Origin: Frankiales bacterium
GTDB lineage: Bacteria > Actinomycetota > Actinomycetes > Mycobacteriales > SCTD01
Reading direction: 5' to 3'
Length of the DNA: 43,593 bases
NCBI GenBank assembly: GCA_025965475.1
Contig: JAOPWV010000033.1
Location: forward strand, 1-43,593
In this document: one piece after another, positions 2 to 43,528 of the stretch
Layout of the letters: each line of letters opens with the position of its first letter
How positions within the stretch are numbered: position 1 is the first letter of the stretch
Translations under genes and position numbers: made by a program
The notes under the pieces: generated by a model
Seen by the model: only the letters and a program-made list of their open reading frames with translations
What the model was told of the DNA's origin: nothing
Databases searched by the model: none

Positions 2-475
2 CCGCGCGGCGAGGGCGCCGGGCCCGACCTGACCGCCGGGCTCTCCGCCGTCCTGAGCCCGCCGCGCCGCCGCGGCCTCGTCGTCGTCCTGTCCGACCTG
101 CTCGGGCCGCCTACCGTCGCACCCGCCGAGCCCGCCTGGGCCAGGCCGCTGCGCATGCTGGCCACCCGCCACGACGTGATCGTGGCCGAGGTGGTGGACC
201 CCCGCGAGCTGGAGCTGCCGGACGTCGGCATCCTCCGCCTCGTCGACCCCGAGAGCGGCCGCCGGCTGGAGGTGCAGACCCGGAGCAAGGGGCTGCGCGA
301 GCGGTACGCGGCCGCCGCCCTGGCCCGGCGGGCCGCCCACCTGGCCGCGGTACGCCGGTCCGGCGCCGGCCACGTGGTGCTGCGCACCGACCGCGACTGG
401 CTCGTCGACCTGGCCACCTTCCTCGCGACACGGCGCCGGCTGCGCGGTGCCGGCCGGCCGCCGGGCGCCCGCTGA
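2..475 (+). CDS. DUF58 domain-containing protein (C-terminal part, truncated by window edge)
   Basis: Open frame from position 2 to TGA at 473; LVVVLSDLLGP...LATRHDVIVAEVVDPRELELPDVG is typical of DUF58 proteins of MoxR/VWA loci; next gene is VWA. Confidence 0.75.
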   Translation, partial: PRGEGAGPDLTAGLSAVLSPPRRRGLVVVLSDLLGPPTVAPAEPAWARPLRMLATRHDVIVAEVVDPRELELPDVGILRLVDPESGRRLEVQTRSKGLRERYAAAALARRAAHLAAVRRSGAGHVVLRTDRDWLVDLATFLATRRRLRGAGRPPGAR

Positions 476-1428
476 TGCACGGGCTCGCGTTCGCCTCGCC
501 GTACCGGCTGCTGATCCTGCTGGCGATGGCCGCGCTGGTCGCGGCGTACCTGTGGCGGCTGCGCGGCCCGTCGTACGCCGTCCGCTTCACCGAGCTCGAC
601 CTGCTGGCGTCCGTGGCGCCGCGGGGTCCCGGCTGGCGACGGCACGTCCCGGCCGGGCTGCTCCTGCTCGCGCTCGTCGGGCTGACGACCGCCTTCGCGC
701 GCCCCGTTGCGGACGTGCAGGTCCCTCGGGAGCGGGCCACCATCGTGGTCGCGCTCGACACGTCGGCCTCGATGACGGCCACGGACGTGTCCCCGGACCG
801 GCTCACCGCCGCCAAGGCCTCTGCCCAGGCGTTCATCGACCGGCTGCCGAAGCAGTTCAACGTCGGCCTGGTGTCGTTCAACGCGGTCGCGTCCGTCGTG
901 GTCACGCCGACGCAGGACCACGCGGCGGTGAAGGACGCCGTCGGCGCGCTGCAGCTCGGCGGCGGGACCGCGATCGGCGACGCGGTGGGCGCGTCCCTCG
1001 ACGCGGTGCGCGCCGTGCCCGGCGGCTCGGGCACCACCCCGGCGCCGGCCCGCATCGTGCTGCTGTCCGACGGCGGCAACACCGTCGGCAGCTCCGTCGC
1101 CTCCGGCGCGCAGGCCGCGGCCGCGGCCGGCGTACCGGTCTCGACGATCGCCTACGGCACCCCCGACGGCACGGTCCTCATCCAGGGCCGGCTCATCCCG
1201 GTACCGGTCGACGGGCCGGCGCTGCAGTCGCTCGCGCAGGCCACCGGCGGCCAGAGCTACGCCGCGCAGAGCGGCGAGGAGCTCAACGGCGTGTACGCCG
1301 ACATCGGCAGCCAGGTCGGCTACACGACACAGCGCAAGGAGGTGACCGCGATCCTGACCGGAGTCGGGCTGCTCGCGGCCGCCGCGGCAGCCGGTACGTC
1401 GCTGCTCTGGGGCTCGCGCTTCCCCTGA
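475..1428 (+). CDS. VWA domain-containing membrane protein (BatA-like)
   Basis: MIDAS-like DTSASMTATD, N- and C-terminal TM segments; overlaps upstream stop (TGATG). Confidence 0.88.
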   Translation: MHGLAFASPYRLLILLAMAALVAAYLWRLRGPSYAVRFTELDLLASVAPRGPGWRRHVPAGLLLLALVGLTTAFARPVADVQVPRERATIVVALDTSASMTATDVSPDRLTAAKASAQAFIDRLPKQFNVGLVSFNAVASVVVTPTQDHAAVKDAVGALQLGGGTAIGDAVGASLDAVRAVPGGSGTTPAPARIVLLSDGGNTVGSSVASGAQAAAAAGVPVSTIAYGTPDGTVLIQGRLIPVPVDGPALQSLAQATGGQSYAAQSGEELNGVYADIGSQVGYTTQRKEVTAILTGVGLLAAAAAAGTSLLWGSRFP

Positions 1429-1443
1429 CGGCAGCGCCACCCC

Positions 1444-1489
1444 TTTGTGGAACTTCCCCAGCACCCTGGTGCTGGGGAAGTTCCACAAG
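1444..1489. repeat. 46-nt hairpin element, copy 1 (21-bp perfect stem 1445-1465/1468-1488)
   Basis: ttgtggaacttccccagcacc-ct-ggtgctggggaagttccacaa, between convergent genes; related copy at 37755..37800. Confidence 0.9.
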
Positions 1490-1494
1490 CCGGG

Positions 1495-2496
1495 TCAGAG
1501 CCGGGGCAGGACCTCCTTGGCGGTGAGCCGGGCGACCTCGTCCGCCCGATCGGCCGGGAAGAGCCAGAGCCCGACCGAGTCCGAGCCGGCGTCGAGGCGC
1601 CGGCGGAGCAGCTCCGCGCACTCCTCCGGGTCGCCCGACACGGCCAGGCCGTCCAGCCACGCGTCGGGCATGTCGCGGGCGACCGCCTCCGGGCCGCCGG
1701 CCTTCAGCATCTCGGTGAGCTCGTCCTGGATGCCGAAGACCTTGCCGAGCGCCGAGTCCGGGATGGCCGCGATGTGCGGTGCGATGGCCTCGCGCAGCGC
1801 CTGCTTGGCCACCTTCGAGTCCGACGCGACCGAGTACAGCGCGTACGTCACCAGCCGGTGCGGTTCGGTGCGCCCGGCCGCCTCGGCACCCGCGGTGATG
1901 TGATCGCGAGCCCAGCGGACGTACGCCGGGCTCGACAGCGTCGACAGGACGGTCCCGTCCGCGACCTCGCCGGACATCCGCAGGCCCCGCTCGCCGACCA
2001 CCCCGGTGTACAGCGGGACGCGGGTGGGCGCCGGATGGGTCAGCGTGATGTCGTCGAAGTGGAAGTGGCCGTCCTCGGTCACGGTCCCGCCGTCGAGCAG
2101 GCGGCGGACCGTGTCCAGCGCCTGGCGCAGGGCGGCCATCGGCTTGTCCGGGCGCAGGCCCATCTGGTCCAGCCAGTGCGGGACACCGTGGCCGATGCCG
2201 CCGTAGATGCGGCCGGGGAACATGCCGTCCAGCGTCGCGAGCTCCATCGCCGTCAGGGACGGGTGCCGGGTCGAGGCGGCGACGATGCCGAGCCCGAGCG
2301 GCAGAGTGGTCGTGGCGCTGAGCGCGGCCGCCGCGCCGGCCATGCCGCCGGAGAACCAGCAGTCCTCGGAGAACCACAGCTCGCCGAAGCCGAGCTCCTC
2401 CGCCAGCCGGGCCAGCGGGACGATGTCCCGGGGTGCCATGTGGCTGCCGAGGACCAACCCGATCGGCGAGCGGGCGTCATGCGTCGACTGGCTCAT
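1495..2496 (-). CDS. LLM class flavin-dependent oxidoreductase (luciferase-like)
   Basis: MSQSTHDARSPIGLVLGSHMAPRDIVPLARLAEELGFGELWFSED; luciferase-like barrel motifs; start at MSQ preferred over upstream in-frame start. Confidence 0.85.
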   Translation of the reverse strand: MSQSTHDARSPIGLVLGSHMAPRDIVPLARLAEELGFGELWFSEDCWFSGGMAGAAAALSATTTLPLGLGIVAASTRHPSLTAMELATLDGMFPGRIYGGIGHGVPHWLDQMGLRPDKPMAALRQALDTVRRLLDGGTVTEDGHFHFDDITLTHPAPTRVPLYTGVVGERGLRMSGEVADGTVLSTLSSPAYVRWARDHITAGAEAAGRTEPHRLVTYALYSVASDSKVAKQALREAIAPHIAAIPDSALGKVFGIQDELTEMLKAGGPEAVARDMPDAWLDGLAVSGDPEECAELLRRRLDAGSDSVGLWLFPADRADEVARLTAKEVLPRL

Positions 2497-13812: not shown

Positions 13813-14595
13813 CTAGGCCACCCGGCCGACGGAGTAGTCGGGGCTGTACAGCGCCTGCAGCCGGACGTGGTCGCCGGCCTTCGGGGCCGCCCACATGGCG
13901 TTGTTGCCGGCGTAGATGCCGACGTGGCTGATGCCACCGCCGCTGTACATGAAGATCAGGTCGCCCGGCTTCTTGGCGGCGTCCGCCACCGGTTGGGCGG
14001 CGGAGGCCTGGCCGGCCGCGGTACGCGGCAGCTGACGGCCGAAGCGGGAGAACACGTACCGGGTGAACCCTGAGCAGTCAAAGGCGCTGGGCCCGTTGGC
14101 GCCCCACTGGTACGGCGCGCCCTGGTGCCGCTGCGCCTCGGTGAGCACCTTCTGTGCGAGCGGGGCCGTCGCGGTGACGACCCGCTGCGGGCTGAGGGAG
14201 GCCTTGTTGTGCGCGTCGCCGCGGAAGTAGGCCCGGTAGCGGTACGTCTTGCCGATCTTGATCCGGGCCTTGCCGAGGCCGGCCTCGCGGGTGGTCATCG
14301 TGGTGATCGGGGCCCAGCCGGTCGGGTCCTGGCGCTGCAGCACGACACTGGCGCCTTCGACGAGGGCGTCGCCCTGAAGGAGGCGGACCGAGACGTCCGC
14401 GGTCGCGCCGGGGCTGACCGAGGCCGGGACCGTCAGCCGCAGGGTGGTGGCGGCCGGAGTGCCGGCCTCGGAGGAGCCGTTCGCCGGCGCCGCGTCGGCG
14501 AAGGCCGGCGACGCGAGCGCGATCGGCAGGAGGGCGGCGGACAGGGCGGCTGCCGTGATGCGGGCAGGCCGGGACAGGGACGTGCAGGAACGCAT
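13813..14595 (-). CDS. Secreted NlpC/P60 (C40) peptidoglycan hydrolase
   Basis: Signal peptide; GAPYQWGANGPSAFDCSGFTRYVF, GDLIFM...ISHVGIYAGNNAMWAAPKAGDHVRL (Cys/His active-site motifs). Confidence 0.93.
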   Translation of the reverse strand: MRSCTSLSRPARITAAALSAALLPIALASPAFADAAPANGSSEAGTPAATTLRLTVPASVSPGATADVSVRLLQGDALVEGASVVLQRQDPTGWAPITTMTTREAGLGKARIKIGKTYRYRAYFRGDAHNKASLSPQRVVTATAPLAQKVLTEAQRHQGAPYQWGANGPSAFDCSGFTRYVFSRFGRQLPRTAAGQASAAQPVADAAKKPGDLIFMYSGGGISHVGIYAGNNAMWAAPKAGDHVRLQALYSPDYSVGRVA

Positions 14596-14597
14596 GG

Positions 14598-14795
14598 AAG
14601 CTGACCTCTCGGACGCCTACGAGGTCAGCTGTCGGGTTCGGGCGCGAAGGTCGCCCGGCGCCGCCCATCGCTGGGCCAGCGCTTCACCCCTAGGACATCG
14701 CATGCACGGGGCATGCATCCGTCCGAGGAACCATGGGTTCCCCGCTCCCGCCCGGGTATGGGTGGCGCGCCTGGCAGCCGGGGGCGGGACTCGGC
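14598..14795 (-). ncRNA. Cyclic di-AMP riboswitch (ydaO/yuaA class), approximate limits
   Basis: Minus-strand sequence GGGCGGGAGCGGGGAACCCATGGTTCC...GGGGTGAAGCG...CGCCCGAACCCGACAGCTGACCTCGTAGGCGTCCGAGAGGTCAGC resembles the ydaO consensus (GGGGAACC, GGGGUGAA, CCCGAACCCGUCAGCUAACCUCGUAGGCG), directly upstream of an NlpC/P60 hydrolase, its classical actinobacterial target. Confidence 0.87.
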
Positions 14796-36726: not shown

Positions 36727-37330
36727 ACACCCGCACCCGCTTGACCTGCACGCCCTCCAACGACCGGGTCGTCGGGATCTCGTACGACGCGAGCGTGACC
36801 AGCCCGCCCTGCGGCAGGTACGACCGGCCGGGATCCCCGAGCAGCACCCGCGCCTCGGTGCGGGCCAGCCAGCTCAGCATCCGCCGCGCCATCTCCTGCT
36901 CGTAGCAGACATCCCCGACCAGGACGACGTCGACGGCGGGCGGCTCAGCCATTAGCAGGTCGTCGGCCACGAACCGCACGGTGGCCCCGTTCAGGCGCGC
37001 GTTCAGCGCGACCGCCGCCGCGCTGTACGGGTCGATGTCGGCGGCGGTCACCTCGGCCGCGCCGGCCGCCACCGCGGCCAGGGCCACCAGCCCGGAGCCG
37101 GTCGCCAGGTCCAGGACGCGCAGCCCGGCGACCTGCTCCGGATGGTCCAGGACGTACCGGGCCACAGCCTGCCCGCCGAGCCAGGCGAAGCCCCAGTACG
37201 GCGGGGGCGTGTCGATGCCGACCGTGCGCCAGAGCACGTCGATGTCATCGGCCAGATGCAGCTGGACCTCGGGCACGAACGCGGGACGCCGTACCTGCGT
37301 GTGCGCCACCACGAACTCCTCGCGGCTCAT
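36707..37330 (-). CDS. Class I SAM-dependent methyltransferase (ETFB lysine methyltransferase-like)
   Basis: GLRVLDLATGSGLVALAAVAAGAAEVTAADIDPYSAAAVALNARLNGATVRF; DVVLVGDVCYEQEMARRML. Confidence 0.85.
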   Translation of the reverse strand: MSREEFVVAHTQVRRPAFVPEVQLHLADDIDVLWRTVGIDTPPPYWGFAWLGGQAVARYVLDHPEQVAGLRVLDLATGSGLVALAAVAAGAAEVTAADIDPYSAAAVALNARLNGATVRFVADDLLMAEPPAVDVVLVGDVCYEQEMARRMLSWLARTEARVLLGDPGRSYLPQGGLVTLASYEIPTTRSLEGVQVKRVRVFSPAAR

Positions 37331-37367
37331 GGGGGTCACCGTAGGCGGGTCGGGCATCATCACGGAC

Positions 37368-37727
37368 ATGATCACGAAGCTGCTCGTCCGCTGGGCCGTC
37401 CTGGCGGTCGCCGTCGCCGTCGCGGCGGCCATCGTGCCGGGGGTGACCGTCCACGGCGGCGTACTGGCGACGCTCTGGGTCGCCGCGCTCGTCGGCCTGG
37501 TCAACGCGGTCCTGGGCCCGATCCTGCGCCTGCTCTCGCTGCCGTTCACGCTGCTGACCCTGGGGCTGTTCGCCCTGGTCGTGAACGGGCTGCTCGTCGC
37601 GATCACCGCCGGCCTGTCCGACAAGCTCGACGTGGGCGGGTTCCTCAGCGCGATCCTCGCCGCGCTCGTCATCTCGCTCGTGTCCGCCGTGCTCAACCGG
37701 GTGCTCGGCAAGAAGCGCACCGGCTGA
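37368..37727 (+). CDS. Phage-holin-family (Mycobact_holin-like) four-TM membrane protein
   Basis: VHGGVLATLWVAALVGLVNAVLGPILRLLSLPFTLLTLGLFALVVNGLLVAITAGL. Confidence 0.85.
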   Translation: MITKLLVRWAVLAVAVAVAAAIVPGVTVHGGVLATLWVAALVGLVNAVLGPILRLLSLPFTLLTLGLFALVVNGLLVAITAGLSDKLDVGGFLSAILAALVISLVSAVLNRVLGKKRTG

Positions 37728-37754: not shown

Positions 37755-37800
37755 CTTGCGGAACTTCCACAGCACCCTGATGCTGTGGAAGTTCCGAAAG
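37755..37800. repeat. 46-nt hairpin element, copy 2 (16-bp perfect core stem 37759-37774/37781-37796)
   Basis: cttgcggaacttccacagca-ccctga-tgctgtggaagttccgaaag, between convergent genes; 39/46 identical to copy 1. Confidence 0.9.
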
Positions 37801-37848: not shown

Positions 37849-38916
37849 TCAGCCCTCCTCGGTGCGGCCGGGGCGGTAGGTGTAGGCGGCCTCGCGTACG
37901 GCGTCGTCGCTCTCCAGGCCCGCCCCGAGGGCACCGCCGACCAGCGCGAGCGAGCCGGCCAGCCAGGCGACCTGCGCGAAGTCGGCCAACCCCACCGGGT
38001 GCTGCAACGCGGCCGCCAGCAGGCCCGGTACGACCAGGCCGCCCGCGGACACCGCGGCCAGGACGAGCAGGACGCCGTACAGCGACAGGACCCCGAGCAG
38101 GACCGTCGTGGTCGTGGCGACGTTGAACAGCACCACCTGCTGGCGGGCCGCCCGGCCGTGCGCGCGTTCCCACAGCCCGCCGCCGATGACCAGGGTGGCC
38201 GTCGTCACGGCCACGCCGACCAGTCCCACGACGACGAGCCGCACCCAGCCGAGGCGATCGGCGGTCCGCCAGATGTCGCTGTTGAGCAGGGCGAAGACAC
38301 CGACGGCCGCGGCCCCGACCAGCGCCCGGGACAACCGCAGCGCCAGGCGCCACGGCTGATTCGTCCGCACCATGCCGGCGAGCAGCCGGAGGTTGGCGCC
38401 GAGGACCCGACGGGTGAAGCGCACCGTGCCCAGCTCGTGCGCGGCGTCCGTGTCCAGACCCAGAGCCCGCACCCGGCGGTGCAGCCCTCGACGGTCTGGC
38501 GCGGCATCGTCGGGCTCGCCGTCCGCGACCAGCGTCTGGATCAGCTGCAGCACCGCGTCGCGGACCCGCCGGCGTACGCCCACGGCACCGAGCGCAGGGA
38601 CCGACAGGACGGCGACACCGTGCAGAGGGCTCGCGTGCGCCACCACCGGCCGGCCGCGTACGGCGAGCGGCAGGTCGGTGAGCAGCACGCTCAGGTCCCA
38701 GTTCTCGTTCAGCAGCCGGCGGCGCAGCGCGTCGACCAGCTCGCCGTCGTCGGCCGGCGGCACGACCAGCTCCTCGATGAGGACGTCGATGTGCCAGTCC
38801 GCGCCGGGCAGCCGCTCTTCGAGCAGCGCGGTGAGGTCCGCCGCCAGCTCGGCGGTGACCTCCGCGAGCGGACCGGGCGCGACCACGAGGCCGAGCACGA
38901 TCCGCGACTCGCTCAT
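37849..38916 (-). CDS. Hypothetical multi-TM membrane protein with soluble N-terminal domain
   Basis: MSESRIVLGLVVAPGPLAEVTAELAADLTALLEERLPGADWHIDVLIEELV then several TM helices; overlaps upstream ACAD gene stop. Confidence 0.75.
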   Translation of the reverse strand: MSESRIVLGLVVAPGPLAEVTAELAADLTALLEERLPGADWHIDVLIEELVVPPADDGELVDALRRRLLNENWDLSVLLTDLPLAVRGRPVVAHASPLHGVAVLSVPALGAVGVRRRVRDAVLQLIQTLVADGEPDDAAPDRRGLHRRVRALGLDTDAAHELGTVRFTRRVLGANLRLLAGMVRTNQPWRLALRLSRALVGAAAVGVFALLNSDIWRTADRLGWVRLVVVGLVGVAVTTATLVIGGGLWERAHGRAARQQVVLFNVATTTTVLLGVLSLYGVLLVLAAVSAGGLVVPGLLAAALQHPVGLADFAQVAWLAGSLALVGGALGAGLESDDAVREAAYTYRPGRTEEG

Positions 38917-43477: not shown

Positions 43478-43528
43478 GCCCCCTACCCCGTTGCCGGTTC
43501 GCCCGCGGCCGGCAACGGGGTAGGGGGC
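43478..43528. promoter_or_regulatory. 20-bp perfect-stem hairpin in a divergent intergenic region
   Basis: gccccctaccccgttgccgg-ttcgcccgcgg-ccggcaacggggtagggggc. Confidence 0.85.

Follow-up and report, generated by a model that had tools for sequence, protein, structure and literature searches.

REP-like intergenic palindromes of actinobacteria, probably recognised and spread by an AbiEi-DUF559 nuclease

In this study, we examined two short palindromes in a 43,593-nucleotide stretch of DNA (the window), which corresponds to contig C107 in an actinobacterial assembly of 3.9 Mb and 215 contigs (G000, the source genome). Copy 1 (1444..1489; E 7.8e-18) has perfect 21-bp arms (1445-1465 and 1468-1488), and its stem may take in flanking sequence, T-rich to the left and A-rich to the right (1440-1493 under covariance model R1). 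To its left lies a gene for a VWA-domain/BatA-type protein (475..1428, plus strand; Pfam VWA_2, 1e-18), to its right one for a luciferase-like monooxygenase (1495..2496, minus strand; Pfam PF00296, 1.4e-51). Copy 2 (37755..37800; E 2.1e-16) has 20-bp arms with one mismatch (37755-37774 and 37781-37800) and is situated between the gene of a Phage_holin_4_2-type membrane protein (36981..37727, plus strand; Pfam PF04020, 2.3e-26) and an ORF without Pfam match (37849..38916, minus strand). These coordinates and sequences, re-read from the window, agree with those of an earlier sequence-only reading, as does the convergent-gene setting of both copies, which Pfam supports for three of the four neighbour genes. 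Direct comparison likewise reproduced the 39/46 identity it had given (seven differences in 46) and the paired swaps it had seen across the stem, T-A versus C-G at positions 5/42 and C-G versus A-T at 15/32; positions 4/43 form a pair in copy 1 but not in copy 2. The folding energies are -45.2 kcal/mol (z -7.7) for copy 1 and -42.0 kcal/mol (z -7.2) for copy 2, and 0 of 200 shuffles fold as well. The window also holds a c-di-AMP (ydaO/yuaA) riboswitch (14599-14774, minus strand; 54.5 bits) just 5′ of the minus-strand gene 13813-14595 and, near the contig end, a 20-bp inverted repeat without mismatch, GCCCCCTACCCCGTTGCCGG, whose loop is 11 nt long (43478-43528), unrelated to the palindromes discussed here.

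The sequence-only reading had proposed a dispersed family from these two copies and suggested a genome-wide pattern or covariance search. Using the pattern with up to 3 mismatches together with R1, which was built from 17 copies, we found this family (family 1) at 23 distinct places in G000, far beyond two copies, while a control pattern gave 0 matches. Placement is not random with respect to coding genes: all copies are intergenic, and 0 of the 23 lie inside called genes. Of the 21 copies that have neighbour genes both left and right, about 10 are convergent, 7 tandem and 4 divergent; the gene caller had tallied 9, 8 and 4, and copy 2 was assigned to the convergent class by its holin-family match. 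For three of the four divergent copies, Pfam verifies the genes to the left and to the right (guaB/DUF5319; GDT1/F420H2 quinone reductase; 5′-3′ exonuclease/acyl-CoA dehydrogenase). Compensatory change within G000 (alignment A1; 17 cells) exceeds that of all 500 shuffles. The lack of a T tract, remarked on from the window copies, extends to the family: the 42 tails of 21 copies carry 0-2 T per 8 nt, with one exception of 4, and are A-rich instead. The sequence-only reading had also suggested a processed RNA; in Rfam, no family matched at gathering score, and relaxed thresholds gave chance miRNA matches only.

Relatives carry analogous palindromes whose sequence differs genome by genome, as found with R1 and a cross-dialect model, R2, whose seeds include three gene-flanking palindromes; examples are CAAGATCTTCGGAACATCCACAGG in G008 and GGCGCAAATCCACACGGCC in G014. 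When 23 palindromes of different genomes were aligned (A2), 15 of the 18 pairs changed on both sides (96 cells; 0 of 500 shuffles as high). Structure-preserving covariation is thus upheld both within G000 and across genomes, and some force, selection or mutation bias, keeps the palindrome. Presence is patchy between close relatives: among three relatives from the same genus, palindromes are absent or scarce in G001 and G002, and about 8, in another dialect, occur in G003. The neighbourhoods of dispersed sites are rarely common to several genomes, the cysS locus excepted. Because the genes beside the window copies are not conserved, purA and DUF5319/guaB were used for site comparison. The gap 3′ of purA measures 71 bp in G000, where it contains the hairpin, 22 bp in G018 and 18 bp in G007, lengths compatible with a roughly 50-bp insertion whose exact ends are not readable from the gap; no precise empty site, target duplication or transposition intermediate was found. 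In G012 (C42:19-458; L245), five palindromes of dialect ...CCGCGTCAGAGCGCGG... follow one another at distances of 74-158 bp, forming a BIME-like array, and genome G375 of f15 has another dispersed palindrome family, GAGCGTGATGnCTnTGAG... (L287:14630, L290:11876, L292:277 and L301:14747). Carriage by phages or plasmids was considered and rejected: the exact family 1 pattern is absent from viral contigs, the palindrome alignment has no viral relatives, and both the AbiEi-DUF559 protein described below and dialect B are absent from plasmids. A search of phage records with this protein gave one unannotated, 35%-identical match.

Outside the window, two family 1 copies flank a gene beside cysS on contig C69 of G000 (L089 5238-6170; 310 aa), and the ortholog in G011 is also flanked by two copies and also beside cysS. 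The N-terminal region (residues 17-187) resembles AbiEi by sequence profile (PADLOC, 1e-9), and AbiEi matches were obtained for two f1 proteins. Members of family f1 reached no Pfam model; DUF559 is above the Pfam cutoff in three f15 homologs (L277, L269, L309), and there are invariant residues, namely E, D, ExD and H. By these sequence features, the C-terminal part of the f1 protein belongs with DUF559, a predicted nuclease (Vsr/PD-(D/E)XK-like). As a single-sequence AF2 model was uninformative (mean pLDDT 39.5), the predicted fold is drawn from the profile matches, which are over the cutoff in the f15 homologs only, and from the conserved residues; a search of solved structures returned only weak PvuRts1I matches (E 1.1).

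Orthologs are present in 14 family f1 genomes, and a palindrome borders the ortholog in 8 of them (G000, G011, G003, G004, G014, G017, G023 and, in decayed form, G002), which are not phylogenetically independent because most orthologs descend from one ancestral locus. Among control neighbour genes, purA has a palindrome in 1 of 21 genomes and guaB/DUF5319 in 1 of 8. Since the AbiEi-DUF559 gene adjoins cysS in 11 f1 genomes, it does not appear to move; it stays fixed there while its palindrome dialect changes. The correspondence of gene and palindromes has exceptions in both directions: G008 (about 24 copies), G021, G013 and G016 have palindromes and lack a close ortholog, and G001, G006 and G010 have an intact-looking ortholog and no detectable family 1 palindromes. 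The gene is broken in G018 (L184/L193) and G023 (L250) and has an internal stop in G002 (L171); palindromes are few in G002 and G023 and were not detected in G018.

A partnership between gene and palindromes would mean that the dialect of the dispersed copies can be predicted from the palindrome flanking the gene. Indeed, the flanking palindrome is closest to the dispersed copies of its own genome in 7 of 7 genomes (1 of 5040 permutations); G000, G011, G017 and G023 are free of any seeding effect, and the result is weaker for G003, G004 and G014, which are somewhat ascertained, as their dispersed copies were found with R2 seeded with the flanking palindrome. Palindrome and gene are therefore paired in these genomes.

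Further pairs provide independent replicates. A paralog in G000 (C193:5782-6558; 38% identical) has its own palindrome, TGCGTCCGGCYGATCGTGGC..., with 3 copies at gene borders, 4 elsewhere in 224 kb of G000 and 0 in 1.63 Mb of other genomes. This family 2 was counted by a longer pattern, GCGTCCGG alone being too short and unspecific (66 matches in G000, 65 in controls); its sites in G000 are at L082:1481, L084:5927, L084:8552, L085:6200 and L187. For a 34% paralog in G006, we found 5 copies of GGATGTGGCGATCAC... at the borders, 1 near purA and 0 in 576 kb elsewhere. We then compared 38 loci of other families (37 from f15, with genomes of 6-7.5 Mb, and 1 from f4) with 236 control genes from one f15 genome. 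A palindrome lies upstream of 24/38 homologs versus 19/236 controls, downstream of 27/38 versus 48/236, and on both sides of 19/38 versus 2/236 (p=7e-17), and the two palindromes of one f15 or f4 locus have similar sequences (a mean score of 29.7 versus 7.3). Protein clades each carry one dialect, B, C or D (0 of 200 label shuffles as low; L317, a row labelled C, looks by eye like a D variant), and this tie is kept even in genomes with two or three paralogs. Dialect B is dispersed in f15, two samples of 400 kb containing 3 and 2 copies, and dialects C and D occur only at the gene in samples of roughly 400 kb; spreading is thus not universal.

Taken together, we think it likely that the 46-nt hairpins are non-autonomous intergenic DNA palindromes of a REP-like family, about 50 bp with flanks, whose cognate partner is the AbiEi-DUF559 gene bordered by the same palindromes, and that the encoded nuclease probably recognises and spreads them. 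The pairing is explained most economically if the nuclease mobilises the palindromes, and binding and cutting are activities that we infer along with this. The AbiEi-like domain would read the palindrome as hairpin, cruciform or duplex, and the DUF559 domain would nick at or beside it; the extruded or copied palindrome could then be placed in new intergenic sites via a replication-fork or break-repair route. Dialect turnover would follow drift in protein specificity, and where genes converge, transcript ends may be affected secondarily.

Several other explanations deserve consideration. The palindromes might be operators of an autoregulating AbiEi-DUF559 protein and the dispersed copies its regulon sites, the nuclease domain being incidental or serving phage defence. 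The promoters of AbiEi antitoxins do contain inverted repeats to which these proteins bind (PMC7319586), upstream palindromes precede many f15 genes by about 50-130 bp, and four G000 copies lie between divergent genes; yet about half of the G000 copies sit between convergent 3′ ends, palindromes are found downstream of the partner gene as well (27/38), dispersed sites are hardly common to different genomes, and a dimeric operator would need less than hairpin stems of 20 bp whose variable positions change symmetrically, so that we regard this account as unlikely. It appears rather improbable, too, that another enzyme spread the palindromes, with AbiEi-DUF559 acting as a host counter-measure or cruciform-cleaving policing enzyme, or with the gene borders being merely a preferred site. 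Such a history would accommodate palindromes in genomes without close orthologs (G008, G021) and orthologs in genomes without palindromes (G001, G010), but a passive landing site hardly accounts for strict pairing of each paralog with its own dialect within one genome, or for palindromes flanking the gene on both sides.

The sequence-only reading had weighed a bidirectional terminator against a mobile or protein-bound REP/MITE-like element. The former, with hairpins homogenised per genome, draws on the strength of the hairpins, their enrichment at convergent gene pairs (about 10 of the 21 copies that can be classified) and their absence from genes. It has lost ground, as the left ends of family 1 are rich in T and the right ends rich in A, leaving no U-tract on either strand, which does not fit a classical terminator; three copies occupy Pfam-verified divergent, promoter-side regions, presence among close relatives is patchy, and the pairing with a nuclease gene is left unexplained, making terminators very unlikely as the explanation. 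Palindromes are also known to undergo correction by template switching, and both arms changing together is what quasi-palindrome mutation with gene conversion would likewise give, in which case the copies would be neutral relics free of structural selection. As a full explanation this is most improbable, since dispersal, the within-genome dialect and the tie to protein phylogeny are not explained by it; arm-to-arm correction may nevertheless act in addition and contribute to the compensatory changes. The mobile-element suggestion holds in its broad sense, by the many copies, intergenic placement, structure-preserving changes and lineage-specific dialect, and fails in the strict sense of REP: flanks and alignment A1 of the G000 copies show no conserved tetranucleotide at the ends corresponding to a GTAG/CGTC head, and no RAYT occurs in 24 family genomes.

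More broadly, and with slightly less assurance, we lean towards a second, independent kind of REP in Actinobacteria: AbiEi-DUF559 nucleases, in place of HUH transposases, would recognise, cut and propagate the dispersed palindromes, and one genome would hold several orthogonal pairs. The origin and persistence of REP-type palindromes is a long-standing question hitherto tied to one transposase family. If our reading is true, an unrelated enzyme class shares the same genomic arrangement, implying that the REP lifestyle evolved more than once, and the uncharacterised AbiEi-DUF559 fusion genes of actinobacteria would gain a cellular role. The presence of several pairs within one genome makes specificity directly testable. 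Within the open-access literature, we found no link of DUF559 or AbiEi proteins to dispersed palindromes; as the search covered open-access papers only, novelty is provisional.

Among known systems, the closest likeness is to REP/RAYT (REPtrons; TnpA_REP), for which features were taken from published descriptions (PMC2817692; PMC3733652; PMC8266576). Shared are short intergenic palindromes with compensatory mutation and copy numbers in the tens, a helper gene that keeps its position and is bordered by cognate palindromes that match the dispersed family, a dialect that tracks protein phylogeny, and the possible coexistence of several pairs in one genome. In contrast, the partner here is AbiEi-DUF559 and not a Y1 HUH tyrosine transposase, no GTAG/CGTC head is seen, and the hosts are actinobacteria, whose names are absent from PMC3733652 and PMC2817692. 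A search for the Y1 HUH transposase (RAYT; Y1_Tnp, PF01797) gave 0 of 24 family genomes, with positive controls detected. With a different helper and RAYT absent, the system works like REP without being a member of REP/RAYT.

MITE and TIR families, including TIRtrons, resemble the palindromes in being small, non-coding, palindromic and apparently non-autonomous, but here two full palindromes and not two half-TIRs flank the helper gene, which stays at one locus, and no target duplication is seen. The N-terminal region matches PADLOC models of AbiEi from the AbiE type IV toxin-antitoxin system, whose AbiEi proteins bind inverted repeats (PMC7319586); it differs in that the C-terminal part here is a DUF559 nuclease-like domain, as predicted from its sequence, and that palindromes are found downstream and genome-wide as well. 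Finally, the Vsr-like EDxHD homing endonucleases, such as I-Bth0305I, also couple selfish DNA to a nuclease domain of Vsr kinship. PMC6083498 lists the EDxHD family. What those enzymes propagate is the gene that encodes them, which enters an allele; in the present system, short palindromes are dispersed and the gene keeps its place.
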